From an uncultured Alsobacter sp. (GTDB taxonomy: Bacteria > Pseudomonadota > Alphaproteobacteria > Rhizobiales > Beijerinckiaceae): a stretch of DNA of 44,865 nucleotides. This document shows positions 6,825-27,958 of the stretch, piece after piece. Position 1 is the stretch's first letter; every line of letters begins with the position of its first letter. The position numbers and the translations under genes were made by a program. The notes beneath the pieces are model-generated. The model was not told the DNA's origin. It saw only the letters and a program-made list of their open reading frames with translations, and did no database searches. The stretch spans positions 1 to 44,865 of the forward strand of contig NZ_CAMFHB010000050.1 in NCBI RefSeq assembly GCF_945952055.1. The letters are read 5' to 3'.

Positions 6825-6830
6825 GCGGCG

Positions 6831-7517: not shown

Positions 7518-7612
7518 GGGCGACGCTGCGCGCTGCTGCCAGGACCTGTCAGCAGGGGTGGCCGATGGTCCTGGGGCCGGCAGCGAGCCGGTGTGCTTCA
7601 GGAGAGCCCGTC

Positions 7613-7993
7613 ATGCCCGCCCGCAATTCCGTCGCCGTCTGGTTCGAAATCCCCGCCGCTGACTTCGAGCGCGCCGTCGCCTTCTACGAAGGCCTGTTCG
7701 CCACTACGCTCAAGCGCGAGACCATGGGGGCGAGCCGCCTCGGCGTGTTCCCCTATGCGGAAGGCGAGGGCGTGTCCGGCTGCGTTTTCGCCGCGCCGCA
7801 CGTGAAGCCGTCACCGGACGGCGCGATCGTCTACCTCAACTGCGACGGCCGGCTGGAGGCGATGCTCGGTCGCCTCGAGGCGCTGGGCGGCAAGGCCGCC
7901 GGCCCGGTGGTCAACCTGCCGGAGGGCATGGGGCGCTTCGTCCACGTGGTCGACAGCGAGGGCAACCGGGTCGGCCTGCACGAGGCGGCGTGA
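7613..7993 (+). CDS. VOC-family protein (glyoxalase/bleomycin resistance fold)
   Basis: The product has 126 residues, the usual length for a single vicinal-oxygen-chelate domain. It begins VWFEIPAADFERAVAFYEGLF, the first beta-alpha module, and ends with the second module, VHVVDSEGNRVGLHEA. Members include glyoxalases, dioxygenases and drug-binding proteins; metal ligands and substrate cannot be assigned with confidence. The ATG at 7613 is preceded by AGGAGAG at about 7600-7606, a good ribosome site. It sits 95 bases downstream of the WYL regulator gene and faces a convergent hydrolase gene. Confidence 0.85.
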   Translation: MPARNSVAVWFEIPAADFERAVAFYEGLFATTLKRETMGASRLGVFPYAEGEGVSGCVFAAPHVKPSPDGAIVYLNCDGRLEAMLGRLEALGGKAAGPVVNLPEGMGRFVHVVDSEGNRVGLHEAA

Positions 7994-8982: not shown

Positions 8983-9204
8983 ATGAACCGATTCGACCGC
9001 CGTCCTGTGCTTCAGGGCGAGGCCGTCGTCGAGTATCTCGACGGAGATTTCCGGATCGTCAAGCCCGGGGCCTTCGTCCGATGCGCCGTGACGCGGGAGG
9101 CCATTCCGCTGGAAGAGCTTCGTTACTGGAACGTGGATCTGCAAGAAGCCTATGTGTCGCGGGACGCCGTTCTTCAGCGTCTCAAGGCCTCGCGGCCCCG
9201 CTGA
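8983..9204 (+). CDS. DUF2093-family small protein
   Basis: The 73-residue product (MNRFDRRPVLQGEAVVEYLD...) matches the pattern of DUF2093, a small alphaproteobacterial family of unknown function with a conserved FVRCAVT and IPLEELRYWNVD core. It has no signal peptide or membrane segment and one cysteine. The family is typically found tail-to-tail with lpxK, as here, where the coding regions overlap by 23 bases at their 3' ends. The conserved placement hints at a link to envelope biogenesis, but no function is known. Confidence 0.85.
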   Translation: MNRFDRRPVLQGEAVVEYLDGDFRIVKPGAFVRCAVTREAIPLEELRYWNVDLQEAYVSRDAVLQRLKASRPR

Positions 9205-10183: not shown

Positions 10184-11472
10184 CAGCGTCCGGCCAGGTG
10201 CATGTGCATGAGGAAGGGCTCGATCGCCTGCATGGTGCGATCGACCGCGCCGCCTAGCCCCTCCACGGTCTCGCCGGCGGCGCGCGCCATGGTCCGCAGG
10301 CGGGCGACGTCCGACAGCAGGGTCCCGACGGTGTTGGCGAGCCCCTGCGCATCGGGGACGGCCACCGATCCGCCCTCGCGGTCGAGGGCCGCGTAGACGT
10401 CGGTGAAGTTGTGGACGTGCGGCCCATGGATGATGGCCGCGCCCAGCTTGCCGGGCTCGATCGGGTTCTGCCCGCCGTGCGGCACCAGCGATCCGCCCAT
10501 GAAGACCACCGGCGCGAGCCGGTAGAACAGGCCGAGCTCGCCGATGGTGTCGGCCACGTAGACGTCCGTCGCCCCGTCGGGCTCGAGCCCGCGGGAGCGA
10601 AGCGCCGTCTTCAGCCCCGAATCGGAGGCGATGAAGGCGATGTCCTCGCCACGCTGGGGATGGCGCGGCGCGATGATCGTGAGAAGGCCCGGAAAATAGG
10701 GGCCCAGCGCCTTGTGGACGGCGACGATCTGTTCTTCCTCGCCGCCATGGGTCGAGGCCGCCAGCCAGACCGGCCGGCCGCTGATCAGGCCCCGCAGGGT
10801 GGAGACCCGCAGCGGATCGGCGGGCGGCGCGGGCGAGTCGAACTTGAGGTTTCCGACCACGCCGACCCGCGGGGCGCCCAGCCGGGCGAGACGGTCGGCG
10901 TCGGCGGCGCTCTGGGCGAGGCAGAGGTCGATGCGGCCGAGCAGGGCGCCGATCATGCCGGACAGGCGGGACCAGCGCCGGAACGACCGCTCCGACATGC
11001 GGGCGTTGACGAGCATCAGCGGGATCCGCCGCTGGTCGACCTCGATCAGCATGTTGGGCCAGAGCTCGGACTCGGCCACCAGCGCGAGGTCGGGCCGCCA
11101 GTGGTCGAGGAACCGGCGCACGTAGCGCGGCACGTCCAGTGGCACGAACTGGTGCAGCGCGCCGGGAGGAAGGCGGCGCTCGATGAGGCGGGCCGACGTC
11201 ACAGTCCCCGAGGTGATCAGCACGCTCAGTCCGCGCTGGGTGAGGCGCTCGGCGATGGGCAGGATGGACAGGCTTTCGCCGACGCTGGCGCCGTGCAGCC
11301 ATGCCAGCCGGCCCGTCGGGCGGATGTGCGTCGCTTCCCCGCGGCGCTCGCCGAGGCGGGTCTTTTCCTCCTTGCCGCGGCGGGCGCGCTCGCGCAGCAG
11401 CAGGCCGGTGAACGGCCGGAGAAGACCCGTGGCGACCCGATAGGACCTCAGAGACAGCGGAAGAGCGCTCAT
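10183..11472 (-). CDS. waaA: 3-deoxy-D-manno-octulosonic acid (Kdo) transferase
   Basis: WaaA (KdtA) adds Kdo from CMP-Kdo to lipid A precursor. The 429-residue product is a GT30/GT-B enzyme. It has an N-terminal membrane-near helix, a KEEKTRLGERRG segment holding the conserved base Glu42, the loop WLHGASVGES (about residues 59-67), TSGTVTSARLIERR, and the C-terminal donor-binding stretch FMGGSLVPHGGQNPIEP. Its start overlaps the stop of the upstream acyltransferase gene in ATGA, and its stop overlaps the lpxK start. Whether it adds one or two Kdo residues cannot be told from sequence. Confidence 0.96.
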   Translation of the reverse strand: MSALPLSLRSYRVATGLLRPFTGLLLRERARRGKEEKTRLGERRGEATHIRPTGRLAWLHGASVGESLSILPIAERLTQRGLSVLITSGTVTSARLIERRLPPGALHQFVPLDVPRYVRRFLDHWRPDLALVAESELWPNMLIEVDQRRIPLMLVNARMSERSFRRWSRLSGMIGALLGRIDLCLAQSAADADRLARLGAPRVGVVGNLKFDSPAPPADPLRVSTLRGLISGRPVWLAASTHGGEEEQIVAVHKALGPYFPGLLTIIAPRHPQRGEDIAFIASDSGLKTALRSRGLEPDGATDVYVADTIGELGLFYRLAPVVFMGGSLVPHGGQNPIEPGKLGAAIIHGPHVHNFTDVYAALDREGGSVAVPDAQGLANTVGTLLSDVARLRTMARAAGETVEGLGGAVDRTMQAIEPFLMHMHLAGR

Positions 11473-12191
11473 GCCGCCCGTGCTCCCCGCAGCCCCGCGC
11501 CTGGATCGGTGCTGCCCACGGCCGCGTAGGCCCGGGCATGGACGTCGTCGAGCCCGCGCTGCACGGCGAGGCGTGCCGCTTCGAGCTGCGCGTCGTCGGC
11601 GTGCCGGTCCACCGTCACGGGATCGCCGGCCGCGACCACCAGCGTTCCAAACGGCAGGCCGATCGTCGTGCGGTCCCAGTTGGCGAAGGTCTTGCGGCGG
11701 CTCGACACCACCGTGACCGGCACGATGGGGCGCCCCGAGAGCCGGGCGAGCGTGACGATGCCGAGGCCCGCCACCCGGGCCGTCTTGGGGACGTCGGCGG
11801 TGAGGGTCACGCTGTCGCCCTGCTCCAGCGCGCGCAGCATTTCGCGAAGTCCATAGACGCCCCCGCGCTTGTGCATCTTGCTGGCGGCCCCGCCCGACGC
11901 GCGGATCGGTCGGATGCCGAAGCTGTCGCAGGCGGCGGCGTTGATCCCGCCGTCGCCGTGCCGGGAGATCAGGACGGCGTACCGGTCCTGCGGACGCTTG
12001 CCGAGCGGGATCATGAAGTGCTGGCCGTGCCAGAGGGCGCAGATGAACGGCTTCAAGGGATCCAGGCGCTCGAAGAGATCCGGCGGCTCCAGGACGAGGC
12101 GGCTCGTGCGCCCGACCAGACGCAAATAGCCCGCGAGCAGGTTGCCGAGGCCAGCCTGCACCGGTGCCGAACGTCCGATCCGCTTGAGCAT
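11469..12191 (-). CDS. DUF374 lysophospholipid acyltransferase-family protein
   Basis: The 240-residue product has an acyltransferase-like core: ALWHGQHFMIPL supplies an H-x(4) type motif, followed by ISRHGDGGINAAAC, RASGGAASKMHKRGG and TADVPKTARVAGLG. This is the DUF374 pattern found beside waaA across Hyphomicrobiales. A role in acylating lipid A or a phospholipid is likely from context, but the acyl donor and acceptor are unknown. The ATG at 12191 was chosen because the family core starts right after it; reading further upstream gives low-quality Arg/Pro-rich sequence. The stop overlaps the waaA start by four bases. Confidence 0.85.
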   Translation of the reverse strand: MLKRIGRSAPVQAGLGNLLAGYLRLVGRTSRLVLEPPDLFERLDPLKPFICALWHGQHFMIPLGKRPQDRYAVLISRHGDGGINAAACDSFGIRPIRASGGAASKMHKRGGVYGLREMLRALEQGDSVTLTADVPKTARVAGLGIVTLARLSGRPIVPVTVVSSRRKTFANWDRTTIGLPFGTLVVAAGDPVTVDRHADDAQLEAARLAVQRGLDDVHARAYAAVGSTDPGAGLRGARAA

Positions 12192-12204
12192 GGAACGGCT
12201 GCGA

Positions 12205-12444
12205 TCAGGCCGTCTGGTCGGTCGTCGGATCGAGCAGCCGGTGCAGGTGCACCACGAAATACCGCATGTGGGCGTTGTCGACCGTGGACTGCGCCTTCGA
12301 CTTCCAGGCGGCATGGGCCGTGGCGTAGTTCGGGAAGATGCCCACGATGTCGAGCTTCGACAGGTCCCTGAACTCGGTCCCGTCCAGCTTGACGAGTTCG
12401 CCGCCGAAAACGAGGTGAGGGAGCTGTTTGGAAGGCGTGCTCAT
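12205..12444 (-). CDS. DUF4170-family small protein
   Basis: The 79-residue product (MSTPSKQLPHLVFGGELVKL...) matches DUF4170, a short Hyphomicrobiales family of unknown function. Conserved features include VFGGEL, FPNYATAHAAWKSKAQ and AHMRYFVVHLHRLLDP. There is no signal peptide or membrane segment. It lies 13 bases upstream of the DUF374 acyltransferase and 31 bases downstream of the phosphatase gene, so it belongs to the lipid A/Kdo operon. That stable position suggests an accessory role in envelope synthesis, unproven. Confidence 0.85.
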   Translation of the reverse strand: MSTPSKQLPHLVFGGELVKLDGTEFRDLSKLDIVGIFPNYATAHAAWKSKAQSTVDNAHMRYFVVHLHRLLDPTTDQTA

Positions 12445-12475
12445 GGTGCGGTCCTTGGTCTGTCGAGGCAGCGGG

Positions 12476-13291
12476 TTAGCGATGTCTGGCCGGGGCGGCA
12501 AGCCAGGCGGCGAGGTCCCGGGCCAGCAGGGCGCCCCCGGCGGCCAGGGATTCGTGTTGCGTCGTCGGTCTGTTGTAGGTCGGCTCCCGGCCCGAGGCGC
12601 CCACCAGCGTCGTCCCGGCACCCGCCAGGATGGCGTGGGCCGCGGCGAGGTCCCAGTCGTGCGCCTTTTCGCCGGCCAACCCGGCATCGACCGTCCCATC
12701 GGCGACACGGACCATGCGCAGGGCGAGCGACCTGATCAGCGGTGCTTGCCGGAAGGTGACGGGCCCGGCGCCGAGCCGGTCGAGGAGCGGGCGCGGGCCG
12801 GCCACGAAGGCGTCGGCCAGCGTGTCGCGGTGGGTGGGTGCGAGGGGCGCGCCGTTGCGCCGGGACACGTCGCCCGGCGTCGCCTCGAACATCTCGTCGC
12901 TCACCGGAGCGTAGACGAAGCCGGCGACGGGCACCCCGTCCGACACGATGCCGATGGCAACCGTCCAGTCCGTATCGCCACGGGCAAAGGCCCGTGTGCC
13001 GTCGATGGGATCCACCACCCAGACCATGGGGCGGGTCAGGCGCGTCGAGTCGTCCAGCGTCTCCTCGGAGAGCCAGCCGAAGGCCGGGGCGGCCGTACCC
13101 AGCCGGTTCTTCAGGAACGTGTCGACCGCGAGGTCGGCCTCCGTCACCGGAGATCCCCCGTTCTTGTAGGAAACCTCCGCCGCCGTCCCCTGGCCCGGCC
13201 GGAACCAGCGCAAGGCGAGCGCGCCCGCCTCGCGGGCGGCATCACGCGCGGCGGCCAGCACCTTCTGGTCGATGGCGATCGTCGGGGACAT
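12476..13291 (-). CDS. Inositol monophosphatase/CysQ-family phosphatase
   Basis: The 271-residue product is a metal-dependent phosphatase of the IMPase/CysQ superfamily. It shows SPVTEADLAVD, the acidic metal site WLSEET, the core WVVDPIDGTRAF with the metal-binding Asp pair, and the C-terminal AHDWDLAAAH. CysQ members remove the 3'-phosphate of PAP from sulfate assimilation; other members act on inositol phosphates, and this sequence does not decide between them. The ATG at 13291 has AAGAGA five bases upstream; an in-frame ATG at 13303 is the alternative. It is the first gene of the operon that ends with lpxK. Confidence 0.85.
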   Translation of the reverse strand: MSPTIAIDQKVLAAARDAAREAGALALRWFRPGQGTAAEVSYKNGGSPVTEADLAVDTFLKNRLGTAAPAFGWLSEETLDDSTRLTRPMVWVVDPIDGTRAFARGDTDWTVAIGIVSDGVPVAGFVYAPVSDEMFEATPGDVSRRNGAPLAPTHRDTLADAFVAGPRPLLDRLGAGPVTFRQAPLIRSLALRMVRVADGTVDAGLAGEKAHDWDLAAAHAILAGAGTTLVGASGREPTYNRPTTQHESLAAGGALLARDLAAWLAAPARHR

Positions 13292-13514
13292 GATCTCTTG
13301 CATCCGGGAGCCGCGCGTTTCTACAGCCGATGCTGCACCGCGGCAAGTCGGTACAGTCACGCTCCAGCAAGCAAGAGGTAAGGAAAATGCTTGTTAAGCA
13401 GCGTCTTACCGGACCTTAACCAGCGGGTTTAAGCGTTTTCGGGGCGGCTCTTGGGCATCCTTCGGGCTCAGTGTGGACAACAACCCCACACATCGTCTTC
13501 GGGAGACGTCGAAC
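13292..13514. promoter_or_regulatory. Divergent control region between the phosphatase operon and the DUF6101-like gene
   Basis: This 223-base region holds no gene. It has three TTAA tetramers (13394, 13416, 13429), unusual in such GC-rich DNA, though none has the 7-base CtrA spacing. Nearer the DUF6101-like start there are two short hairpins: GTGTGG/CCACAC (13471-13491) and CGTCT/AGACG (13494-13508). The second covers part of the GGGAGA ribosome site for the ATG at 13515 and could affect translation. Confidence 0.3.
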
Positions 13515-16335: not shown

Positions 16336-17103
16336 ATGCCGACGGTGGACGCGACACGGGTGAACCTCCGGGGCCGGGACTTCCGGGTCGCCGACGACAA
16401 GCCGACGTTCTGGGCACGGGCTTGCGCCGGGACCTGGGAGCCGGAGACGCTGGCCGCCCTCGAAGAGGTCGTCCGGCCTGGCGACACGGTCCTCGACATC
16501 GGGGCGTGGGTGGGCCCGACCGTGCTGTTCAGCGCGGCCTTGGGCGCGCGGGTCGTCGCCGTCGAGGCGGATCCGGCGGCCCAGGACCAGCTCGCCCGCA
16601 ACCTCGCCGTGAATCCGGCCCTGGCGGAGCGGATCTCCGTCATCCGGGCCGCCGCGACGCCCGACGGCGCCTCCGTCAGGCTCGGCGCGGCCCGCAAGCG
16701 CGGCGACAGCATGAGCAGTGCGCTGCTGACCGGCGCGGCGGACACCTGGGAGTGCCCGGGCATCGCCCCGGCGGCGCTGCTGGAGGCCGCCGCCGTGGCC
16801 CCGGGGGCGGCGCTCGTGGTCAAGATCGACATCGAGGGCGGCGAATACGCGCTGGTGCCGGCGCTGGCCCCGCTCCTGCCGCCCTGGACGAGGGCGGTCC
16901 TGCTGGCCGTGCATCCGCGCATCCTGGACACGTCCGGGGCCGGGCCGGACGCCGTCCGCACGGCCACCGCCAAGGTCCTGTCGGCGTTTCAGGGCTGGTC
17001 CGTCCGGGTGCTGGACCCCGGGCCGGATGCCGCGATCACACCGGCCGAGGCCGCGGCGAGGGACAACCTCACCCTCCAGCTGGCACGTCCGATGCTAGCC
17101 TGA
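16336..17103 (+). CDS. FkbM-family SAM-dependent methyltransferase
   Basis: The 255-residue product has a Rossmann methyltransferase core with the SAM motif VLDIGAWVGPTVLF (about residues 52-65), the acidic VVAVEADP strand, and the FkbM hallmark VVKIDIEGGEYALV. FkbM proteins O-methylate sugars or polyketides and are frequent in surface-glycan loci. There is no signal peptide. It begins three bases after rsmE and precedes the glycosyltransferase cassette by about 250 bases. A role in methylating the cassette's glycan is plausible from position but not shown. Confidence 0.85.
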   Translation: MPTVDATRVNLRGRDFRVADDKPTFWARACAGTWEPETLAALEEVVRPGDTVLDIGAWVGPTVLFSAALGARVVAVEADPAAQDQLARNLAVNPALAERISVIRAAATPDGASVRLGAARKRGDSMSSALLTGAADTWECPGIAPAALLEAAAVAPGAALVVKIDIEGGEYALVPALAPLLPPWTRAVLLAVHPRILDTSGAGPDAVRTATAKVLSAFQGWSVRVLDPGPDAAITPAEAAARDNLTLQLARPMLA

Positions 17104-17114
17104 CGCCACGCGGA

Positions 17115-17146
17115 TCGCGGCCGCTGCCATTTGACGCCGGCCGCGA
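17115..17146 (+). terminator. Hairpin just after the FkbM gene
   Basis: TCGCGGCCG (17115-17123) pairs perfectly with CGGCCGCGA (17138-17146) around a 14-base loop, 12 bases after the FkbM stop. No T tract follows, so it may mark the transcript end rather than act as a full intrinsic terminator. Confidence 0.35.
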
Positions 17147-17163
17147 CCCGGGAACCACAGCTT

Positions 17164-17226
17164 GATCATAGCCGAACCCAGACTGGAAAATTGATCGTGC
17201 CAAGCCCAATCCGAGCGGCTATGATC
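17164..17226. promoter_or_regulatory. 11-bp perfect inverted repeat upstream of the glycosyltransferase cassette
   Basis: GATCATAGCCG (17164-17174) and CGGCTATGATC (17216-17226) are exact reverse complements separated by 41 bases, in a locally AT-richer stretch. The right arm contains TATGAT, a good -10 element reading toward the cassette, about 125 bases before the first ATG; the left arm has the same reading outward. It could be an operator or the remnant of a small mobile element. Confidence 0.45.
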
Positions 17227-17351
17227 CCATTCAAACTCCGGAGCCTTGGGGCGGCGCGGGGCTTTGACTGTCAGGCACTCGGGGCTGGTAGCGCTTGTCG
17301 TTGTCACGTCCGGCCTAGCGTGTGTGTCGTGGGCATGGGGGTCGGTTTGTG

Positions 17352-18638
17352 ATGCCTTTCGGTAAGCCGGGAGCCTCCGCCGGAGGGCGCGGCGCGTCCG
17401 CGACGAGCCGGACACCGCGCGTGCTCATCTACAGCCACGATACGTTCGGCCTGGGGCACCTGCGTCGGTCGCGCGCCATCGCGAACGCGCTCGTGCAGTC
17501 CACGCCGGACGCGTCGGTCGTGATCATCTCGGGCTCGCCGGTCGTCGGGAGCTTCGAGTTCGGCAACGGCGTGGACTTTGTCCGTGTGCCCGGCGTGGTG
17601 AAGCTGCCCAACGGCGACTACACCAGCCTCAACCTCAATCTCGACCTCGACGAGGCCGTGGCGCTGCGCGAGTCAATCATCCGCAGCACCGCGACGGTCC
17701 TGAAGCCCGATCTCGTCATCGTCGACAAGGAGCCGACGGGCTTCCGCGGCGAACTGCTGCCCACGCTCGAGGCCATGAAGTCCGCCGGAGCCCGCCTCGT
17801 GCTGGGCATCCGCGACGTGATGGACGAGCCGGCGCTGCTGGTGCCGGAGTGGGAGCGCAAGGGCGCGGTCGATGCGCTGGTGCGCTACTACGACGACATC
17901 TGGATCTACGGCCTCGAGGAGCTCTACGAGCCGCTCGTCGGCCTCGACCTGCCGGAGGATGTCCGCCGTCGCTGCGTCTACACCGGCTATCTGCGCCGTG
18001 AACTGCCCGACGAGCCGAACCTCACGCGTTACCCCAAGCTCACCCGCGGCCCCTTCGTGCTCGTCACGACGGGTGGCGGCGGCGACGGGGAAGACCTGCT
18101 GGACTGGGTGATCTCGGCCTACGAGACCGACAAGAGCATCCCCCTGCCGGCGCTGGTGGTGTTCGGGCCGTTCATCACCCGGGCGAACCGCAAGCACTTC
18201 CTCGAGCGGATCGCCAAGCTCGACAACGTCGATGCCATCATGTTCGACGCCAAGATCGAACACCTGATGAAGAAGGCGACGGCCATCGTCGCGATGGGCG
18301 GCTACAACACGTTCTGCGAGATCCTGTCCCTCGACAAGCCGGCCCTGATCGTGCCGCGCAAGCGGCCGCGCCTGGAACAGGCGATCCGGGCCAGCTGCGC
18401 CGAGCGCCTCGGCCTCGTGCATCAGCTGGACGGGCTCGACAGCCCCGGTGGCAAGCACGACCCGGCCGACATGGCGCAGGCCATCCGGGGCTTGCAGGAC
18501 CAGCGCAAGCCCTCCGAGGCCTTCGTTCCCGGTCTCCTGGACGGGCTCGCCCGGATCCAGGCGATGACGAAGCCGTGGCTCGATGCGGCCCGTCGCGGCC
18601 AGCCCCTGCCGCCATCCGTGGGCGTCGCCGCCGAATGA
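17352..18638 (+). CDS. COG4671-type (MurG-like) glycosyltransferase
   Basis: The 428-residue product is a GT-B fold enzyme of the 'predicted glycosyl transferase' type. The N-terminal domain has YSHDTFGLGHLRRSRAIANAL (G-x-G-H loop) and VIISGSP. The middle has GIRDVMDEP and VYTGYLRREL. The C-terminal donor site includes VTTGGGGDG and AIVAMGGYNTFCEILSLDKP, like MurG. The acceptor and sugar are unknown. The ATG at 17352 follows a GGGGGT stretch. Its stop overlaps the next start (ATGA), the first of three such overlaps that join four genes. It is paralogous to the N-terminal half of the last cassette gene. Confidence 0.85.
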   Translation: MPFGKPGASAGGRGASATSRTPRVLIYSHDTFGLGHLRRSRAIANALVQSTPDASVVIISGSPVVGSFEFGNGVDFVRVPGVVKLPNGDYTSLNLNLDLDEAVALRESIIRSTATVLKPDLVIVDKEPTGFRGELLPTLEAMKSAGARLVLGIRDVMDEPALLVPEWERKGAVDALVRYYDDIWIYGLEELYEPLVGLDLPEDVRRRCVYTGYLRRELPDEPNLTRYPKLTRGPFVLVTTGGGGDGEDLLDWVISAYETDKSIPLPALVVFGPFITRANRKHFLERIAKLDNVDAIMFDAKIEHLMKKATAIVAMGGYNTFCEILSLDKPALIVPRKRPRLEQAIRASCAERLGLVHQLDGLDSPGGKHDPADMAQAIRGLQDQRKPSEAFVPGLLDGLARIQAMTKPWLDAARRGQPLPPSVGVAAE

Positions 18639-19927
18639 ACGCGCCCCTGCGGGTCGGCGGCGCCGCTCCGACCCTGGCCGTCGTGGTCAAGGGCTACCCT
18701 CGTCTGTCGGAAACCTTCATCTCGCAGGAAATCCTCGCCCTGGAGCGCACGGGCTTTCCCCTCGAGATCTGGTCGCTGCGGCTTCCCACCGACAAGGCGG
18801 TCCATCCTCTCAACAAGGCCATCCGCGCCAAGGCGCACTACCTGCCGGAATATCTCTACGAGGCGCCGATGCGGGTTCTGCGCGGCGCGCTGGCGGCCGT
18901 CGGGATGCCGGGCTTCGGCCGGCTGATGCGGGCGTTCTGGAAGGATCTGCTGCGCGACCCCACGCCCAATCGCGGCCGCCGCCTCGGCCAGGCCTTCGTC
19001 TTCGCGCGCGAACTCGACCCGCGCATCCGCCACGTCCACGTGCATTACCTGCACACGCCGTGTTCGGTCGTCCGCTACATGGCCCTGCTGACGGGCCGCA
19101 CCTTCAGCGTTTCGGCCCACGCCAAGGACATCTGGACGACGCCTGCCTGGGAAAAGCGCGAAAAGCTCGCGGACGCGGCCTTCGCGGTGACGTGCACCCA
19201 GGCCGGCATCGACACTTTGCGGCCGCTGTGCCCGCCCGACGATCCGCAGCGCGTCGGGCTCGTCTATCACGGCCTCGACCTGAGCCGTTTTCCCGCGCCG
19301 CCGGCGACGAGGCCGGCGCGCGACGGATCCGATCCGGCGGACCCCGTCGTGATCCTGTCGGTCGGCCGTGCCGTCGCCAAGAAGGGCTACGACGATCTCC
19401 TCGAGGCGCTCGCCGGCCTTCCGGCCGCGCTGCATTGGCGCTTCGTCCACATCGGGTCCGGAGAACTGCGCGACAGCCTGAAGGCCGCCGCGGCCCGGCT
19501 CGGCCTGTCCGAGCGGATCACGTGGATGGGCGGCCAGGCCCAGGACGCGGTGGTCGAGGCCATGCGCTCCGCCGATCTGTTCGTGCTCGCGTGCAAGGAA
19601 GGCGACAAGGGCGACCGGGACGGCCTTCCCAACGTGCTGATGGAGGCGGCGACCCAGGCGCTGCCCCTGCTGTCGACCCGGTTCGCCGGGGTTCCGGAGT
19701 TCGTGCGGGACGGGGAGGAGGGTCTGCTCGTTGCCCCCGGCGCGCCGGACGAGCTGCGCGCCGCGCTGGAGCGGCTGCTGCGCGAGCCGGGGCTGAGAAG
19801 CCGCCTCGGGACCACCGCCTGCCGCCGCGTGCACGAGGCGTTTTCCTTCGAGGCCGGCATCGCCGCGCTGACCGAGCGGCTCGCGGGGCTGGTTCCGGTC
19901 GCGGCTCCGGCGACCGACCGGCCATGA
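18635..19927 (+). CDS. GT4-family glycosyltransferase (WcaL-like)
   Basis: The 430-residue product is a retaining GT-B enzyme resembling WcaL/colanic-acid-type transferases. The N-terminus has VVVKGYPRLSETFISQEI, and the middle VHVHYLHTPCSVVRYMAL and FSVSAHAKDIW. The C-terminal GT4 domain has ILSVGRAVAKKGYDDLLEAL and the donor-site motif RDGLPNVLMEA with GVPEFV. It is cytoplasmic or membrane-associated and has no transmembrane segments. Start and stop both overlap neighbours by four bases. Confidence 0.88.
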   Translation: MNAPLRVGGAAPTLAVVVKGYPRLSETFISQEILALERTGFPLEIWSLRLPTDKAVHPLNKAIRAKAHYLPEYLYEAPMRVLRGALAAVGMPGFGRLMRAFWKDLLRDPTPNRGRRLGQAFVFARELDPRIRHVHVHYLHTPCSVVRYMALLTGRTFSVSAHAKDIWTTPAWEKREKLADAAFAVTCTQAGIDTLRPLCPPDDPQRVGLVYHGLDLSRFPAPPATRPARDGSDPADPVVILSVGRAVAKKGYDDLLEALAGLPAALHWRFVHIGSGELRDSLKAAAARLGLSERITWMGGQAQDAVVEAMRSADLFVLACKEGDKGDRDGLPNVLMEAATQALPLLSTRFAGVPEFVRDGEEGLLVAPGAPDELRAALERLLREPGLRSRLGTTACRRVHEAFSFEAGIAALTERLAGLVPVAAPATDRP

Positions 19928-21045
19928 CGATCGCCTTCCTGGCGCCGCTGAAGTCGCCGGAGCATCCGGAGCCTTCCGGCGATCGGGAGATGGCCCGTCT
20001 CCTCATCCGGGCCCTCGAGACCGCCGGCCACCCGGTGGAGATCGCCTCGCGGCTGCGCATGCTGGATCGCACCGGCGCCGAGACGCCCGGCCTCGCGGCA
20101 CGGGCGCGCGCCGAGGCGGACGCCTATGTCGCCGCCGCGCAGAAGCGGCCGCCGGCCGACAGGCCTCGCGCCGTGTTCAGCTACCACGTCTTCTACAAGG
20201 CCCCCGACGTGGCGGGGCCTCGCATCGCCGCGGCCCTGGGCGTGCCCTACGTGGTGGCCGAGGGATCCCGGGCACCCAAGCGCGCCGGCGGCCCCTGGGA
20301 CGCGGGCCACCGCCTCGCCGAGGCGGCGCTGGATGCGGCGTCGGCCGTTCTCATTCTCAACGAGCGCGACAGACCCATGCTCGAGCGCAGCCGTCCGGCC
20401 GGGCAGCGTCTCGTGGCGCTGCCGCCCTTCGTGGACGCCTCGGCCTGGCCCGCCCTGGCGCGCAGGCCGGTGTCCTCCCACGGGGAGCCCCTGCGCCTGC
20501 TCTGCGTGGCCATGATGCGCCCGGGCGACAAGTTTGCGTCCTACCGGCTCCTGGCCGAAGCCCTGGCGCAGGTGCCGGGGGAGGGCTGGCGCCTCGACGT
20601 GGTCGGCGACGGGACGGCCAGGGCCGAGGTCGAGCGCCTCTTCGCGCCCTTCGGCGAGCGCGTGCGCTTCGCCGGCCGGATCGAGGACCGTGGCGAACTC
20701 GCGCGTCACTACGCCGGAGCGGACCTCCTGGTCTGGCCTGCGGTCAACGAGGCCTTCGGAATGGTGTTCCTGGAAGCGGCCCTGCAGGGATGCCCCGCGC
20801 TGGCCGGGGCGTTCGGGGGCGTGCCGGGCGTCGTGCGCCATGGCGAGACCGGACTGCTGACCGCGCCGGGGTCCGTGCAGGCGTTTGCGGCGGCCCTGGC
20901 CGCGTTGCTCGCGGACCGTGCCGCACTGCGGCCCCTCGCCGCAGGTGCCCTGGCCTTCGCCAGGACGGACCGGTCCGTCGCGGCGGCGGCCGGCATCCTC
21001 GACGAGGTTCTCGCCACCCTCGCGGCCGGGCGGAGCGCGGCATGA
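19924..21045 (+). CDS. Second GT4-family glycosyltransferase
   Basis: The 373-residue product begins MTIAFLAPLKSPEHPEPSGDREMARLL, the usual N-terminal acceptor-domain loop. It has FSYHVFYKAPDVAGPRIAAALG and a GT4 C-terminal domain with RLLCVAMMRPGDKFASYRLLAEAL and the E-x7-E donor motif in NEAFGMVFLEA, followed by GVPGVVRHGETGLL. Sugar and acceptor are unknown. Translation is coupled to both neighbours by ATGA overlaps. It is distinct in sequence from the preceding GT4, so the two probably add different residues. Confidence 0.88.
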   Translation: MTIAFLAPLKSPEHPEPSGDREMARLLIRALETAGHPVEIASRLRMLDRTGAETPGLAARARAEADAYVAAAQKRPPADRPRAVFSYHVFYKAPDVAGPRIAAALGVPYVVAEGSRAPKRAGGPWDAGHRLAEAALDAASAVLILNERDRPMLERSRPAGQRLVALPPFVDASAWPALARRPVSSHGEPLRLLCVAMMRPGDKFASYRLLAEALAQVPGEGWRLDVVGDGTARAEVERLFAPFGERVRFAGRIEDRGELARHYAGADLLVWPAVNEAFGMVFLEAALQGCPALAGAFGGVPGVVRHGETGLLTAPGSVQAFAAALAALLADRAALRPLAAGALAFARTDRSVAAAAGILDEVLATLAAGRSAA

Positions 21046-22958
21046 GCACCCAGTCGGTCCTCCTCGTCGTCACGCATCTCTTGGGCACCGGCCATCTCAC
21101 CCGCATGGCGGCGCTCGGCCGGGGGCTCGCCCGAGCGGGGCACCGGGTCACGCTCGTCACGGGGGGGCGGCCCCTGCCGCTTCTCGACGTCGCGGGCGTC
21201 GCGGTCGTCCAGCTGCCTGCCGTCCATTGCGTGGGAACCGACTTCCGGACGCTGTTGGGGGAAGACGGGCGCGAGGCGGGTGACGCCCTGATGGCAAACC
21301 GCCGCGCCGCCTTGCTCGAGGCCTTCGCCGCGGCCGCCCCCGACGTGGTGGTGACCGAGCTTTTCCCGTTCGGTCGTCGGCAGCTCGCGGCCGAGTTCGA
21401 GGCCCTGCTGGCGGCCGCCGTGGCGCGGGTCCCCAGGCCCGCGATCCTGTGTTCGGTCCGCGACATCCTCAATCCGCCGTCCAAGCGGGAACGGGTTGCC
21501 GAGGCTCTCGACAGGCTCGGGCGCTTCTACGATGCGGTGCTGGTCCACGGGGACCCGGCGGTCGCGCCGCTCGGCCTGGCCTGGCCCTCCGACCCGGCGC
21601 TCGACCGGCGCCTCGTCTACACCGGCTACATCGCCGCGCCCCACAGGAAGGCATCGCCCCGGGGCGACGGCGTCGGCGAGGTCATCGTCACGGCGAGCGG
21701 CGGGGCCGCCGGGCTGCCGCTCTACCGCGCCGCGGTCGGAGCCAAAGTGTTGCAGGGGGAGGGGCCTACCTGGCGGATCCTGGTGGGTCACGGGGTCGCC
21801 GCGGCGGACTTCGACGGGCTTGTGGCCGATGCGCCCGCCGGGTGCACGGTGGAACGCGCGCGGGCCGATTTCCGCGACCTGCTGGACCGGGCGGCGATCG
21901 TGGTCGCGCAGGCCGGCTACAACACGGTCGTGGAGATCGCGCAGGCGCAGGCGCGGGCCGTGCTGGTGCCCTTCGACGAGGGCAACGAGAAGGAACAGAC
22001 CCTGCGCGCCTCGGTCTTCGGCCGCCTGGGGCTGGCCGAGACGGTCCCGGCCGCGCGGCTTTCGCCCGAGCGCCTGCTGGAGGCCGTGGCGTCGCGGCTC
22101 GACGCGCCGCGACCGATCGCCTCGCCCATCGACCTCGACGGAATCGACGAGACGATCGGCGCGATCGAGGTCGCCTCGCAGTGGGCGTCGGAACGCCACG
22201 AAGCCTGGCAGCGCCTCGACGCCTTGCTGGAGACACTGCGCGCCCGCGGTTCGAAGGTGGCGTTCTGGTGGCGCGACGACGACGCCGTCGCCGCCACGCC
22301 GGCGCTGGACCGGCTCCTGGCCCTGCGGGAGCGGGTGCGGGTTCCGCTCTCGCTCGCCGTCATCCCGGCGCATGCCGAGGACAGCCTCGCGCGCCGGCTC
22401 GCCACCGAACAGGACGTGACGGTGCTCCAGCATGGCTTCGCCCATGCCAACCAGGCGCCTCCCGGCGAGAAGAAGGTCGAGCTCGGCCACTGCCCCATGC
22501 GCCTCATGCTGGGCGAGATCGAGCTGGGGGCGCAGCGTCTCGAAAGGCTGTTCGGACGCCGCTTCCGGCCGGTGATGGTTCCGCCGTGGAACCGCATCGA
22601 TCCCGCGCTGCCGGCGGAGCTTCCCGATCTCGGCATCCGGGGCCTCTCGACGTTCAAGGATCGGGCCTGGCGCGAGCCGGTGCCGGGCCTCGTCCAGGTC
22701 AACACGCACTGGGATCCGATCGCCTGGCGCGGGTCGGGCGGCCTCGCCGATCCCGCGACGCTCGTCCGGCAGCTGACGAACCTGATCGAGGCGCGTGCGA
22801 GCCTGGCTTTCGAGGAACAGGAACCGATCGGGCTCCTCACTCATCATCTGGTGCACGACGGGTGGATCTGGAGCTTCTGCGAGGACGTTCTCGCCAGGCT
22901 CGTGCGCTCCGACGTGGCCGTCTTCGTCGATCCCTGGCGGAGGGACGATCGTGGATGA
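21042..22958 (+). CDS. Fusion of a COG4671-type glycosyltransferase and a NodB-type polysaccharide deacetylase
   Basis: The 638-residue product has two parts. Residues about 1-370 repeat the plan of the first cassette enzyme: HLLGTGHLTRMAALGRGL, SVRDILNPP, VYTGYIAAP, VTASGGAAG and VVAQAGYNTVVEIAQ. Residues about 400-638 form a deacetylase-like domain: WWRDDD (Asp412-414) gives the acidic motif, and HGFAH (His464, His468) matches the HxxxH zinc site of the NodB superfamily, with VPPWNRI and THHLVHD downstream. Standalone proteins like this second part exist in related bacteria. It would deacetylate an N-acetyl sugar at or after transfer. No signal peptide is seen, so the deacetylase would act in the cytoplasm. 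Confidence 0.85.
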   Translation: MSTQSVLLVVTHLLGTGHLTRMAALGRGLARAGHRVTLVTGGRPLPLLDVAGVAVVQLPAVHCVGTDFRTLLGEDGREAGDALMANRRAALLEAFAAAAPDVVVTELFPFGRRQLAAEFEALLAAAVARVPRPAILCSVRDILNPPSKRERVAEALDRLGRFYDAVLVHGDPAVAPLGLAWPSDPALDRRLVYTGYIAAPHRKASPRGDGVGEVIVTASGGAAGLPLYRAAVGAKVLQGEGPTWRILVGHGVAAADFDGLVADAPAGCTVERARADFRDLLDRAAIVVAQAGYNTVVEIAQAQARAVLVPFDEGNEKEQTLRASVFGRLGLAETVPAARLSPERLLEAVASRLDAPRPIASPIDLDGIDETIGAIEVASQWASERHEAWQRLDALLETLRARGSKVAFWWRDDDAVAATPALDRLLALRERVRVPLSLAVIPAHAEDSLARRLATEQDVTVLQHGFAHANQAPPGEKKVELGHCPMRLMLGEIELGAQRLERLFGRRFRPVMVPPWNRIDPALPAELPDLGIRGLSTFKDRAWREPVPGLVQVNTHWDPIAWRGSGGLADPATLVRQLTNLIEARASLAFEEQEPIGLLTHHLVHDGWIWSFCEDVLARLVRSDVAVFVDPWRRDDRG

Positions 22959-23101: not shown

Positions 23102-24994
23102 TTGTCGGGTCAAGCGCTGGTCAGCATCCGGGATCTCGCCGTCGATTTCGACGGTGACGCGGGCATCGTTCACGCGGTGCGCGGGGTCTCGTTCGACATT
23201 CCGAATGGGCGGACCCTTGCCGTCGTGGGCGAATCCGGCTCCGGAAAATCGGTCACGGCCAATGCCTTGATGCGCCTTCTCCCCCGGCGTGGCCGCATCG
23301 TCGGCGGCAGCCTGATCTTCCGCGATCCCACGGGTGTCGAGGTCGACACGGCCAAGCTCGACCCCAACGGGGACGAGATCCGCAAGCTGCGCGGCTCGCG
23401 CATGGCGATGATCTTCCAGGAGCCGATGACCTCGCTGTCGCCGCTCCACACGGTCGGCGACCAGATCACCGAGGCACTGAAGATCCACGCCAACGTCCAG
23501 CCCAAGGAGGCGGACGAGGCGGCGATGGCGGTGTTCGATCGCGTCGGCTTCCGCGATCCGCGGCGCATGCTGACGACCTACCCGTTCGAGCTGTCCGGCG
23601 GCATGCGCCAGCGCGCGATGATCGCGATGGCCCTGATCTGCAAGCCGGCCCTGCTGATCGCCGACGAGCCCACCACCGCCCTCGACGTGACCACCCAGGC
23701 GCAGATCCTGGCGCTCATCAAGGAGATCCAGGCCGAGACGGGCATGGGCGTGCTGCTCATCACCCACGATCTCGGCGTCGTGGCCAACATGGCCGACGAC
23801 GTGGTGGTGATGTACCGCGGCGAGGTGATGGAGCGCGGGTCGCGCGAGGACATCTTCCGCCGGCCGCAGCATCCCTATCTCACCGCGCTGATGCGGGCGG
23901 TGCCGCGGTTCGACATGCCGGCCGGCGAGCGGCTCACGCCGATCCGCGAGATCAAGGTCGACACCGAGGCCGTGGCCAAGAGCGCCCGCGGCCGCCAGTC
24001 CGCCCCCACCGCCGGCCGCACCGTTCTCGACATCCGCAACGTGTCGAAGACCTTTACGCTGCGGGCGAGCGGCCTGTTCGGCAAGGCGCAGACGGTGAAC
24101 GCGCTGTCGAACGTCAGCCTGTCGATCCCGGCGGGGACGACCGTCGGGCTCGTCGGCGAGTCGGGCTCCGGCAAGACGACGCTGTCGAAGATCATCATGC
24201 GGGCGCTGGCGCCCGATACCGGATCCGTGCGCTTCGACGATGGGTCGGGCCCGCGGGACGTGTTCAAGCTGAGGGGCAGCGAGCTCAAGTCCTACCGCCG
24301 GGCCGTCCAGTTCGTGTTCCAGGACCCGTTCTCGAGCCTGGACCCACGCATGACGGTCTACGACATCCTGGCCGAGCCGCTGCGAGTGCACGGGGTTGGA
24401 AGCTCCGACGAGCAGTTCGCCCGGATCAAGGAGCTCCTGGAGCTCATCGGCCTCGACCAGCGCTCGATGCGGCGCTACCCGCATTCCTTCTCGGGCGGGC
24501 AGCGGCAGCGCATCGGGCTGGCGCGCGCTCTCGCGCTGAATCCGTCCGTGATCCTGTGCGACGAGCCGACCTCGGCGCTCGACGTGTCGGTGCAGGCGCA
24601 AATCCTGAACCTGCTCAAGGACCTGCAGGGCGCGCTCGGCCTGAGCTACCTGTTCGTCTCGCACAATCTCGCGGTCGTCGACTACATGGCCTCCGAGATC
24701 GCGGTGATGTGCCGGGGCGTGATCGTGGAACAGGCTCCGCGCGCGACGCTGTTCCGCGACCCGCGGCATCCCTACACGCAGGCGCTGCTGGCGGCGGTGC
24801 CGACCCCGGATCTCGACCATCCGCTCGACTTCGTCCGGGTGTGCAACACGGGCTTCTCGGATCCGGCGCAGTGGCCGGAGCCTTTCACCATCCGTCCGGG
24901 CATCACCCGTCCAGAGCCGATCGAAGTCGCTCCGCGCCACTTCGTGTGCATGGCCGCGGAGGAGACTTCCCCAGTGCTGAGGGCCGCATCATGA
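23102..24994 (+). CDS. ABC importer ATPase with two fused nucleotide-binding domains (peptide/oligosaccharide class)
   Basis: The 630-residue protein fuses two OppD/OppF-type ATPase domains, like YejF. The first has Walker A GESGSGKS (residues 43-50), signature LSGGM (164-168) and Walker [13 protein letters not shown]. The second has GESGSGKTT (from residue 352), [15 protein letters not shown] and [11 protein letters not shown]. Both look active. It powers uptake through the two permeases encoded downstream. The start is a TTG at 23102, supported by GGGGGAG six bases upstream and by the normal N-terminus [11 protein letters not shown]; no ATG fits. The stop overlaps the binding-protein start (ATGA). 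Placing the ATPase gene first in the operon is less common. Confidence 0.92.
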
Positions 24995-26925
24995 CCGTGA
25001 AGCAGACCCCGTCGCTCCTGTCCCGCCGCCAGTTCGGCCTGCTCGCCGGAGCCGCCGGCCTCGTCGGCACGTCGCCCCTGCGGGCCGCAGAACTCACCTT
25101 TTCGGAGGCCCCGGAGCTGGCGGCGCTGGTGGGCAAGGGCTCGCTCCCCCCGGTGGCGGAGCGCCTGCCCAAGCAGCCGCTCGTCGCCGACTTCACGGCC
25201 CGCAAGCGCGAGGTCGGACGCTACGGTGGCGAGATCCGGACGCTCGTCGCGAAGGCCAGGGACCTGCGCTATCTCTCCGCCAATGCCTATACCCGCCTCG
25301 TCGGCTACGACGAGAAGCTCGACATGCAGCCCGACCTCGCCCAGTCGGTCGAGGTCGAGGACAACAGGGTCTTCACGATCACGCTGCGCGAGGGACATCG
25401 CTGGTCCGACGGGCATCCCTTCACGATCGAGGACTTCCGCTACTGGTGGCAGGACGTTGCGCTCAACAAGGAGCTGAGCCCCACCGGCCCGCCGGAGATC
25501 TTCGTGGTCGACGGGCGCTTTCCCAAGGTCGATTTCATCGACGACAGGCGGATGCGCTTCTCCTGGGAGAAACCGAACCCGCGTTTCCTGCCGGCGCTGG
25601 CGCAGCCGAGGGCGATGACGCTGTTCGTGCCGGCCCACTACCTGCGTCAGTTCCACCGCAAGTACCGCGAGAAGGCTGAGCTGGACCAACTCGTCACCAA
25701 GGCCAAGCTGAAGTCGTGGGCCGCCCTGCACAACCGCATGGACGATTCCTACGACTATTCGAACCCCGAATTGCCGACGCTCGGTGCCTGGGTGTGCAAG
25801 ACGGCGTCGCCTGCGACGCGCTACGTCTTCGAGCGCAATCCCTACTTCCACCGCGTGGATCCAAAGGGGCAGCAATTGCCCTACATCGGGACGGTCGTGG
25901 TCGACATCGCGTCGGGCAGCCTGTTCGCGGCCAAGGCGAATGCCGGCGACGCCGACCTCCTCGCTCGCGGGCTTTCGATGAACGACACGCCCGTCCTGAA
26001 GGAGGGTGAGAAGCTCAACGGCTACAAGACGCTGCTGTGGAGCTACGCACGCGGCTCGGCCTACGCCTTCTATCCCAACCTCAACTGCAACGACGACGTC
26101 TGGCGGCACCTGAACCGCGACCTGCGGTATCGCAAGGCACTGTCCCACGCCATCGACCGGCGCATTCTCAACAACGCGCTGCTGTTCGGCTTGGGCTCGG
26201 AGGGCAACAATACCGTCCTGCCGCAGAGCCCGCTCTACGAGGACAAGTTCCGGACGCTGAACGCCGGCTACGATCCCGCCAAGTCCTCTGCGCTGCTCGA
26301 CGACATCGGCCTGACGGACAAGGACTCGCTGGGCATCCGCAAGCTGCCCGACGGGCGTCCGCTCGAGATCATCGTGGAGGTCGACGGCGAGTCGGCCGAC
26401 ATCATCGACGCGATGCAGCTCGTCACGGAGATGTGGCGCGACGTCGGCGTGAAGCTGTTCGTGAAGCCGCAGGACCGCACCATCCTGCGCCAGCGCTCCT
26501 TCTCCGGACTGACCGTGATGGTGTGTTCGACGGGGCTCGACAACGCGGTGCCCACGCCGCAGATGCCGCCGTTCGAACTCGCGCCGGTCCGCCAGGATCA
26601 CTACAGCTGGCCCAAATGGGGCCAGTGGTTCGAGACGCAGGGCAAGAACGGCGAGGAACCGGACAACGTCACGGCGCGCCGCCTGCTCAATCTCTACCGG
26701 GGCTGGCTGTCGTCGAGCGAGCCGGAGGAGAGTGCGCGCATCTGGGCCGAGATGCTGCAGCTCAACGCCGAGCAGCTCTTCAGCATCGGCACCGTGGCGG
26801 GCGAGCTCCAGCCGATCGTGATCAAGAACACGATGCGCAACGTGCCGCCGAAGGCCCTGTACTCGTGGGAGCCCACGTCGCTGCTCGGCATCTACCGCAT
26901 CGAGGAATTTTTCTATGGTGGGTAA
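24991..26925 (+). CDS. ABC transporter substrate-binding protein, family 5, with Tat signal
   Basis: The 644-residue product is a large extracytoplasmic solute-binding protein of family 5 (peptide/nickel/oligosaccharide class). Its N-terminus has a twin-arginine signal (SRRQFGLLAGAAGL, cleavage near residue 32), so it is probably exported folded to the periplasm. Family features include LAQSVEVEDNRVFTITLREGH, WSDGHPFTIEDF, RYRKALSHAIDR and PDGRPLEIIVEVD. The ligand is unknown; peptides, opines or oligosaccharides all occur in this class. It is translationally coupled to the ATPase, and the first permease starts seven bases after its stop. Confidence 0.9.
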   Translation: MTVKQTPSLLSRRQFGLLAGAAGLVGTSPLRAAELTFSEAPELAALVGKGSLPPVAERLPKQPLVADFTARKREVGRYGGEIRTLVAKARDLRYLSANAYTRLVGYDEKLDMQPDLAQSVEVEDNRVFTITLREGHRWSDGHPFTIEDFRYWWQDVALNKELSPTGPPEIFVVDGRFPKVDFIDDRRMRFSWEKPNPRFLPALAQPRAMTLFVPAHYLRQFHRKYREKAELDQLVTKAKLKSWAALHNRMDDSYDYSNPELPTLGAWVCKTASPATRYVFERNPYFHRVDPKGQQLPYIGTVVVDIASGSLFAAKANAGDADLLARGLSMNDTPVLKEGEKLNGYKTLLWSYARGSAYAFYPNLNCNDDVWRHLNRDLRYRKALSHAIDRRILNNALLFGLGSEGNNTVLPQSPLYEDKFRTLNAGYDPAKSSALLDDIGLTDKDSLGIRKLPDGRPLEIIVEVDGESADIIDAMQLVTEMWRDVGVKLFVKPQDRTILRQRSFSGLTVMVCSTGLDNAVPTPQMPPFELAPVRQDHYSWPKWGQWFETQGKNGEEPDNVTARRLLNLYRGWLSSSEPEESARIWAEMLQLNAEQLFSIGTVAGELQPIVIKNTMRNVPPKALYSWEPTSLLGIYRIEEFFYGG

Positions 26926-26931
26926 TCGCTG

Positions 26932-27957
26932 ATGCAGATGGTGGTCTATCTCCTGCGCCGGAGCGTGACGATGGCGCTGACGCTGCTCGCCATCTCGGCA
27001 CTCGTCTTCATCGTCATCAAGCTCCCGCCGGGCGATTATCTCAGCAACCAGATCGACGAACTGCGCGCGCAGGGCGACGCCGCTGCGGCGGCCAAGGCCG
27101 AGTTCCTGCGCCAGCAATACGGGCTCGACCGTCCGGTGTGGGAGCAGTACCTGGCGTGGATCGGGTTCATGCCGGGTCCGAACGGCTGGTCCGGCCTGCT
27201 GCAGGGCGACTGGGGCTGGTCCTTCGAGTTCCAGCGCCCGGTCAACGAGGTCGTCGGCAGCGCGCTGGGCCTCACCATCGTCGTGAACATCGCGACGGTG
27301 CTGTTCATCCACCTCGTCGCCATCCCGATCGCCATCTATTCGGCCACGCGCCAGTACTCCTTCGGAGACTACGCCGCGACCCTGATCGGCTACCTGGGCC
27401 TGGCGACGCCGAACTTCCTCCTCGCGCTGATCCTGCTGTTCTACCTCAACCGATGGTTCGGGGTGTCGATCGGCGGCATGATGGATCCGAAATACGCGAA
27501 CGCGGCGATGTCCATGGACAAGCTCCAGTCCATCGCCTCCCATCTCGTCGCGCCCGTCATCGTCATCGGCCTGTCGGGCACCGCCGCGATGATCCGACGG
27601 ATGCGCGCCAACCTCCTGGACGAGTTGCAGAAGCAGTACACGGTGACGGCGCGGGCCAAGGGCATGCGCCCGCTGCCCGCCCTCCTGAAATATCCCTTCC
27701 GCATGGCGCTCAACCCGTTCGTGGCCGACATCGGCAACCTCCTGCCGCATCTCGTGTCGGGGTCGGTGCTCGTCTCGCTCGTGCTGTCGCTGCCGACCGT
27801 GGGGCCCGTGCTCCTGCAGGCGCTGAAGCAGCAGGACCAGTATCTGGCAGGCTTCATCCTGATGTTCGTCGCCGTCCTGACCGTGATCGGCATGCTGATC
27901 TCGGATCTCCTTCTCGCCGCGCTCGACCCGCGCATCCGTTTCGGCAAGCGGGGCTGA
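26932..27957 (+). CDS. ABC transporter permease (DppB/YejB type)
   Basis: The 341-residue inner-membrane protein begins MQMVVYLLRRSVTMALTLLAISALVF, the first transmembrane segment typical of DppB/YejB. It continues with a periplasmic loop, five more membrane helices and the EAA-type coupling loop LLDELQKQYTVTARAKGM that contacts the ATPase. It forms a heterodimeric channel with the next gene's product. The coding regions are one base apart, so the two are cotranscribed. Confidence 0.93.
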   Translation: MQMVVYLLRRSVTMALTLLAISALVFIVIKLPPGDYLSNQIDELRAQGDAAAAAKAEFLRQQYGLDRPVWEQYLAWIGFMPGPNGWSGLLQGDWGWSFEFQRPVNEVVGSALGLTIVVNIATVLFIHLVAIPIAIYSATRQYSFGDYAATLIGYLGLATPNFLLALILLFYLNRWFGVSIGGMMDPKYANAAMSMDKLQSIASHLVAPVIVIGLSGTAAMIRRMRANLLDELQKQYTVTARAKGMRPLPALLKYPFRMALNPFVADIGNLLPHLVSGSVLVSLVLSLPTVGPVLLQALKQQDQYLAGFILMFVAVLTVIGMLISDLLLAALDPRIRFGKRG

Positions 27958-27958
27958 C

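Follow-up and report, generated by a model that had tools for sequence, protein, structure and literature searches.

What is built by four coupled glycosyltransferase (GT) genes found on a contig of an uncultured Alsobacter sp., and does the product leave the cytoplasm? The stretch analyzed here, referred to below as the window, is a contig of 44,865 nucleotides (NZ_CAMFHB010000050.1, assembly GCF_945952055.1) that corresponds to contig C50 of a 6.6-Mb genome (G000). A first-pass annotation made from the sequence alone had presented the genes, together with an upstream FkbM methyltransferase, as an undescribed system making a short glycolipid or glycosylated carrier. Our analysis indicates that the cassette probably supplies the core enzymes with which a conserved envelope-glycan system of the Alphaproteobacteria builds its glycan, and that its counterpart by orthology is the locus for the phazolicin-protecting polysaccharide (PPP) of Sinorhizobium meliloti. 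What stands of the earlier interpretation is a coherent, conserved glycan cassette; its novelty and the core membership of the FkbM gene do not, and the glycolipid made without an exporter is unlikely.

The cassette and its counterpart in Sinorhizobium meliloti

The five genes of the original proposal are the following.

16336-17103, plus strand, FkbM-type S-adenosylmethionine-dependent methyltransferase gene, an optional accessory (255 aa)
17352-18638, plus strand, GTA, a GT28/COG4671-type GT, the COG name being that of the first-pass annotation (428 aa)
18635-19927, plus strand, GTB, a GT4 glycosyltransferase, EpsE-like (430 aa)
19924-21045, plus strand, GTC, a second GT4 glycosyltransferase (373 aa)
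21042-22958, plus strand, GTD, a GT-B (MurG/GT1-like) GT fused to a CE4-like putative deacetylase (638 aa)

Orthologues of all the GT and deacetylase components were found on pSymB of S. meliloti, with identities of 47% for GTA, 52% for GTB, 43% for GTC, and 40% and 42% for the GT and deacetylase parts of GTD, respectively. The window thus holds five GT/deacetylase orthologues at 40 to 52% identity, and a linked importer has its own counterparts there at 46% (substrate-binding protein [SBP]) to 65% (permease C). According to Travin et al. 2023 (PMC10128002), nine genes within the smb21252-smb21271 region protect S. meliloti from phazolicin, and their product, of uncertain chemistry, was provisionally named PPP. 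Mutants of smb21252 and smb21265 had phazolicin MICs (minimal inhibitory concentrations) of 0.18 µg/ml versus 1.47 µg/ml for the wild type, an 8-fold difference from which the authors inferred the loss of a surface-polysaccharide barrier in the envelope. The same text cites orthologues from an Agrobacterium pyocyanin screen and from a symbiosis screen, and another study (PMC10315480) describes the induction of seven of the nine PPP genes by Myxococcus predation. The cassette can therefore not be called undescribed, since its orthologues form the PPP locus. The claim that no product had been chemically assigned holds for the published work that we found. Keyword searches of the literature retrieved nothing on the full gene set, nor on COG4671 together with glycosyltransferase.

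The proposed coupling of the four GT genes was confirmed, with ATGA overlaps at positions 18635, 19924, and 21042. Four-base gene overlaps are by themselves common, and we consider the cassette a unit because it is conserved elsewhere, which is the stronger evidence.

Conservation and co-occurrence across genomes

Conservation was evaluated in a sample of 289 alphaproteobacterial genomes for three markers: the deacetylase (E ≤ 1e-15); a MsbA-like ATP-binding cassette (ABC) protein, ABC904 (E ≤ 1e-40); and the importer SBP (E ≤ 1e-100). The last threshold was chosen after seeing the gap, with 91 genomes retained at this value and 93 at 1e-60 (G174 and G347 were left out). The deacetylase was detected in 83 genomes, ABC904 in 98, and the SBP in 91. 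Nearly every genome with the deacetylase also had the SBP (80 of 83, versus 26.1 expected) and ABC904 (81 of 83, versus 28.1 expected), and 78 genomes had all three. The deacetylase and SBP genes were within 15 kb of each other in 67 of the 80 genomes that had both, and the deacetylase and ABC904 genes in 48 of 81. In a phylum-wide sample of 398 genomes, the deacetylase profile matched 34, five of which were listed only as belonging to the same phylum.

Gene neighborhoods were compared in 80 named loci, the best 80 among the 559 matched by a query with fused GTD, a choice that favors fused loci with the same gene order. Some of these loci end at contig ends, and the counts omit importer ATPase, permease, MscS, and UgdH matches below 40% identity as well as SBP matches below 38%. 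Read with these limits, GTB was present in 70 loci, the SBP and the importer ATPase in 69 each, GTA and GTC in 67 each, ABC904 in 52, and a gene for a cyclic-nucleotide (cNMP)-binding protein in 48. The usual order in the family has the cNMP and ABC904 genes divergent from GTA-GTB-GTC-GTD-ATPase-SBP-permease-permease. The GT and importer genes were adjacent or clustered in Ruegeria, Azospirillum, Rhizobium, Mesorhizobium, Sinorhizobium, and Sulfitobacter plasmids. The expectation of a cassette conserved in Hyphomicrobiales was right. Among 12 Methylobacterium loci, only L166 showed a GTC gene; its absence from the other 11 (L160 to L164, L169, and L171 to L175, some of them cut short) suggests a shorter glycan or a replacement encoded elsewhere.

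Some loci carried additional genes. A histidine-phosphatase gene lies within the cassette, before GTD, in Ruegeria (L033, 17330-17914), Azospirillum (L034, 17318-17911), and Sulfitobacter (L080, 17330-17914). In Mesorhizobium and Sinorhizobium (L036 and L078), the cluster around the cassette also takes in genes for a UDP-sugar dehydrogenase, a nucleotide cyclase, DUF3095, and an MBL-fold protein; queries with the dehydrogenase, the cyclase, and DUF3095 found no match in the window at E ≤ 1e-8. Farther afield, a fused homologue of GTD with 29% identity is encoded on a plasmid of the Nitrospirota (Candidatus Manganitrophus; L079, 14902-16887), in the vicinity of genes for alginate lyase and alginate export.

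Glycosyltransferases and the deacetylase domain

GTA matched PF04101 (29.3 bits; cut-off, 22) and PF13528 (26.3 bits; cut-off, 25), GTB matched PF00534 (E of 2e-31), and GTC matched PF13692 (E of 3.8e-26). The description of GTB as WcaL-like proved loose because, beside a weak match to the WcaL model TIGR04005 (67.2 bits; cut-off, 537.6), EPS_EpsE scored higher (153.9 bits; cut-off, 400), and both scores fall far under their cut-offs. In agreement with the proposal that the first and last enzymes are paralogues, GTA and GTD were 27% identical over 392 alignment columns (E of 7e-16), and a search of the whole genome with GTA returned only these two proteins at E ≤ 0.001. The motifs they had been said to share do occur (GLGHL/GTGHL, IRD/VRD, YTGY, and GYNT).

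GTD consists of a GT at about residues 1 to 385 and a putative deacetylase at about residues 388 to 638, and comparison of the predicted structure gave a GT-B fold for residues 2 to 386. The hallmarks of CE4 enzymes are a metal-binding Asp, an HxxxH motif, and catalytic residues further downstream, and all of them were found in the C-terminal half of GTD. The corresponding WxRDDD, HGxxH, VPPWNR, and HH elements were invariant in the 19 aligned sequences. Domain matches of these 19 sequences at E ≤ 1 were weak: nine to DUF2334 (best E, 1.2e-4) and three to PF01522 (best E, 0.0021). The deacetylase profile gave a best E value of 0.83 against PDB sequences. On these motifs, the C-terminal half of GTD would be a CE4-like deacetylase.

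The MsbA-like protein and its cyclic-nucleotide-binding partner

Of 127 open reading frames (ORFs) of at least 120 aa in the window, 58 were chosen for a Pfam scan. No match to Wzx, Wzy, a capsule-type (KpsMT-type) exporter, or an initiating transferase was obtained among these 58 ORFs, as the first-pass annotation had stated for flippases, polymerases, exporters, and initiating transferases, and no polysaccharide lyase turned up among them. The homologue of ABC904 in this genome is encoded on another contig (G000:C7:105947-108370; L089, 9948-12572) and is 53% identical to that of a relative in the same family; further homologues were seen in loci from L034 to L175. A cNMP-binding gene and a gene for an MBL-fold metallo-hydrolase adjoin it, so that the genome does encode both the MsbA-like ABC protein and the cNMP-binding protein of PPP-type systems, in a trio unlinked to the window.

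The transmembrane domain of ABC904 is of the ABCB type, according to Pfam (ABC_membrane) and to Foldseek matches with PCAT1, TM287/288, and MsbA; the predicted model of the L137 copy had a pLDDT of 80.5 and a pTM of 0.74. We then compared 75 ABC904 proteins (complete ORFs of at least 800 aa) with 105 importer ATPases, several genomes being counted under two locus identifiers in both sets. The column of the Walker A lysine contained A in 47 ABC904 proteins, P in 18, R in 3, G in 3, S in 2, I in 1, L in 1, and K in none, and no GK[ST] was found within residues 351 to 470 in any of the 75. Seven of them have a GxxxxGKT string, but it starts at residue 49 and so does not belong to the ABC domain. 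As a control, both Walker A motifs were retained in all 105 importer ATPases. The ABC signature pattern SGG[QEM] was found in 1 of 75 ABC904 proteins, but no more than 36 of the 105 importer ATPases contain it twice, a failed control; the pattern is too narrow, and the case for a dead ATPase therefore rests on the Walker A lysine. By that measure, ABC904 looks like a dead ATPase. Its ABC domain is split in two halves by an insertion of about 250 residues that holds repeated elements, and an element resembling T(L/I)xxNLxxG (NLLFG-like) occurs in three copies in 56 of the 75 proteins, in two copies in 8, in one copy in 8, and in none in 3.

In Sulfitobacter dubius (L080, 19908-23012, by Pfam) and Azospirillum sp. 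B510 (L034, 4067-7210, by alignment), ABC904 carries the cNMP-binding domain as a C-terminal fusion, and elsewhere a separate gene encodes this domain, which looks intact. These fusions support the view that the two proteins are a working pair. A signature that we take to be the phosphate-binding motif was retained in 24 of 27 cNMP proteins, and nucleotide cyclase genes lie near the cassette in Rhizobium, Mesorhizobium, and S. meliloti. Literature searches joining degenerate ABC proteins, cNMP domains, and polysaccharides found nothing relevant. ABC904 might serve as a gated conduit, a scaffold, or the partner of another ATPase. A possible scheme, which we put forward tentatively and with more doubt than confidence, is that a cNMP-gated ABC exporter devoid of its own ATPase activity (a bacterial second-messenger-gated pseudo-ABC flippase) moves the glycan and that the importer recycles the product. 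An ABC exporter with an apparently dead ATPase and a cyclic-nucleotide-binding partner is the least explained part of the system.

These data also bear on the proposal that the cassette makes a short glycolipid or glycosylated carrier, completed in the cytoplasm and in need of no dedicated exporter. The cassette has four GTs only, none of the export or initiation functions listed above was found among the 58 ORFs scanned, and the MsbA-like partner is encoded away from the cassette in this genome and lacks ATPase motifs, all of which would suit such a product. Across the genomes with the deacetylase, that partner is nonetheless almost always present, often divergent from GTA and beside the cNMP gene. 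Mutation of PPP genes causes hypersensitivity to a peptide that must cross the envelope, and the authors of that work infer an envelope barrier. We consider a purely cytoplasmic glycolipid unlikely.

One candidate for a copy of ABC904 in the window itself was rejected. An ORF of 904 aa at 5279-7993 (plus strand) has the same length as the Rhizobium ABC904, but it gave no ABC match, and the true copy is the one on contig C7. It overlaps, in another frame, the gene for the large subunit of exonuclease VII (5253-6824) and, having no convincing Pfam match, is probably a G+C-rich shadow ORF. MatE-type transporters are a family of efflux pumps distantly akin to flippases; one is encoded at 35906-37282 (minus strand; PF01554, E of 3e-34), about 13 kb from the cassette, with no sign of membership.

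The linked importer

The unit originally delimited was too small. Directly 3' of GTD lies an oligopeptide-type ABC importer (23102-29137), a near-constant neighbor, followed by a mechanosensitive channel gene; both had been missed.

23102-24994, plus strand, importer ATPase with two fused ABC domains (PF00005 twice); the TTG start is not proven
24991-26925, plus strand, importer substrate-binding protein, SBP_bac_5 (PF00496, E of 4e-54, from the longer ORF 24556-26925)
26932-27957, plus strand, importer permease B (PF00528, E of 6.5e-26)
27959-29137, plus strand, importer permease C (PF00528, E of 1.4e-29)
29153-31255, minus strand, MscS-type mechanosensitive channel, an occasional neighbor (PF00924, E of 1.4e-15)

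The Walker A motifs of the importer ATPase are intact at residues 43 and 352, and the SBP gene starts with the ATG at 24991, in an ATGA overlap with the ATPase gene. In S. meliloti ml47 (L078, 13376-15266), the SBP gene appeared as two tblastn pieces with no annotated gene and may be broken, whereas strain 2011 (L077) has it as an uninterrupted reading frame of 635 aa. An MscS gene is also found near the system in Ruegeria, Sulfitobacter, S. meliloti, L044, and L064, and at 40% identity or more it was present in 2 of the 80 named loci.

The constancy of the importer raises another explanation, namely that an imported oligosaccharide or peptide is modified in the cytoplasm by the four GTs and the deacetylase, which would make the cassette a catabolic or signaling module rather than an envelope-glycan pathway. 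The SBP accompanies the deacetylase nearly as constantly as the MsbA-like protein does and is more often adjacent. It belongs to the same family as the pectin-binding protein SPH1118 of Sphingomonas sp. A1 (PMC9314435), its second-best solved relative (E of 1e-70; 1.3e-68 for the Rhizobium SBP orthologue). Yet of six ligand-contacting residues of SPH1118 (R57, R438, R466, R496, E505, and W594), the window SBP keeps only two in an alignment compared by eye, R466 and W594, so the pectin ligand is not transferable. Four GTs and no recognized hydrolase in the unit point to synthesis, and the sensitivity of mutants in the orthologues of GTC and of GTD or GTA was read as a barrier defect. Salvage and remodeling is in our opinion distinctly improbable. 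That the target of the cassette is a small natural product, secreted after decoration, and not an envelope glycan, an idea arising from the action on antibiotics of the GT-B folds nearest to GTD, seems to us very improbable.

The FkbM gene and the surrounding genes

The FkbM methyltransferase upstream of the cassette was verified, scoring 50.9 bits against NCBIfam TIGR01444 (cut-off, 37.7) and falling just short of the Pfam FkbM model (21.3 versus 22.7). Its gene begins 3 bp past the stop of an RsmE-like gene and leaves a gap of 248 bp to GTA. It was present in only 5 of the 80 named loci and so is not part of the core. The gene also lies immediately 5' of GTA in L096, L118, and L134. The notion that it is merely a companion of rsmE was discarded, given that in L118 it adjoins GTA and rsmE is at the opposite end of the locus. 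From these positions, we take it to be a real but rare accessory of the cassette.

The block from FkbM to MscS is flanked by the rsmE-like gene and a GCS2 gene, as identified by Pfam in the window. Farther 5' of the cassette, at 9182-13360 (minus strand), are ordinary lipid A and lipopolysaccharide genes (LpxK, DUF374, and an inositol monophosphatase family gene), including a Kdo transferase (PF04413, E of 2.1e-59).

Weighing the assignment

Several observations weigh against the assignment to an envelope-glycan system of the PPP type. We know of no purification of PPP. The phazolicin phenotype is tied to two GT mutants, in S. meliloti only, and none is assignable to the importer or to the MsbA-like gene. 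Strain ml47 was annotated without SMb tags, and these were assigned by counting along it from published anchors (SMb21248, aminotransferase; SMb21249, sulfotransferase; SMb21250, GT; SMb21257, cyclase). By this count, smb21252 would be the orthologue of GTC, and smb21265 that of GTD, or of GTA if extra ORFs were annotated; smb21265 is labeled a "glycosyltransferase family protein," which suits both alike. The count also places smb21271 two genes beyond FkbM, on an unrelated-looking transporter gene, and may therefore err by some ORFs in that part of the locus. In the survey, 11 of 91 genomes with the SBP and 17 of 98 with ABC904 had no deacetylase at the threshold used, and the hypergeometric co-occurrence values ignore shared ancestry, which inflates them. 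The deacetylase activity ascribed to GTD would rest on motifs, the window domain having no Pfam match. Finally, an export role for ABC904 is not secured, given that it has no ATPase motifs.

An identification of the first GT4 gene as SMb21252 had also been considered and was rejected, because the published anchors set against strain ml47 make that gene SMb21250.

Proposed mechanism and significance

In the mechanism that we propose, the two MurG/GT1-like and the two GT4 transferases would work in the cytoplasm and assemble a short oligosaccharide or repeat. GTD would add an N-acetylated sugar, from which its own C-terminal domain would remove the acetyl group to expose a free amine. Under the control of a cyclic nucleotide bound by its partner, the MsbA-like protein might help the product to cross the inner membrane, and the importer might take fragments of the glycan back in. 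In some strains, FkbM may O-methylate the glycan.

An anonymous cassette is now tied to the sole published phenotype that we found for the gene set. The deacetylase occurs in over a quarter of the sampled alphaproteobacterial genomes, and related loci are both chromosomal and plasmid borne, pSymB included. The PPP glycan gains a defined core gene set and a likely amino-sugar step, along with two testable partners: the importer, and an exporter that appears to have lost its ATPase and comes with a cyclic-nucleotide sensor. Should the glycan protect cells from peptides, it would matter for how many soil bacteria fare in symbiosis, under predation, and against antibiotics.

Comparison with known systems

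Among characterized enzymes, MurG (GT28) and the MJ1255-type GTs resemble the GT-B fold of GTD and the C-terminal donor-site matches of GTA and GTD. The scores are nevertheless far from those of true members: 26.2 bits for GTD with the murG model (cut-off, 250.25) and 42.6 bits for GTA with that of MJ1255 (cut-off, 195.9). The lipid-linked glycan flippases of the MsbA/PglK type (ABCB-like exporters) share the type of transmembrane domain with ABC904. Unlike MsbA, the lipid A flippase, ABC904 has neither functional ATPase motifs nor an uninterrupted ABC domain, and its Rhizobium copy reached 182 of the 602 bits required by TIGR02203.

The closest likeness is to the PPP locus, where the counterparts of GTA to GTD, the deacetylase, the four-gene importer, MscS, and FkbM are all on one pSymB stretch (L077 and L078), 31 to 65% identical. 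The S. meliloti ABC904, cNMP, and MBL genes are inside that locus and have counterparts in the Alsobacter genome, where the trio is on a separate contig. In the window, unlike in S. meliloti, a GT and the deacetylase are fused as GTD, and all four GT genes are contiguous. With its GT-deacetylase fusion, its unbroken run of GT genes, and an ABC904 trio encoded elsewhere, the window holds a variant of the PPP-type core.

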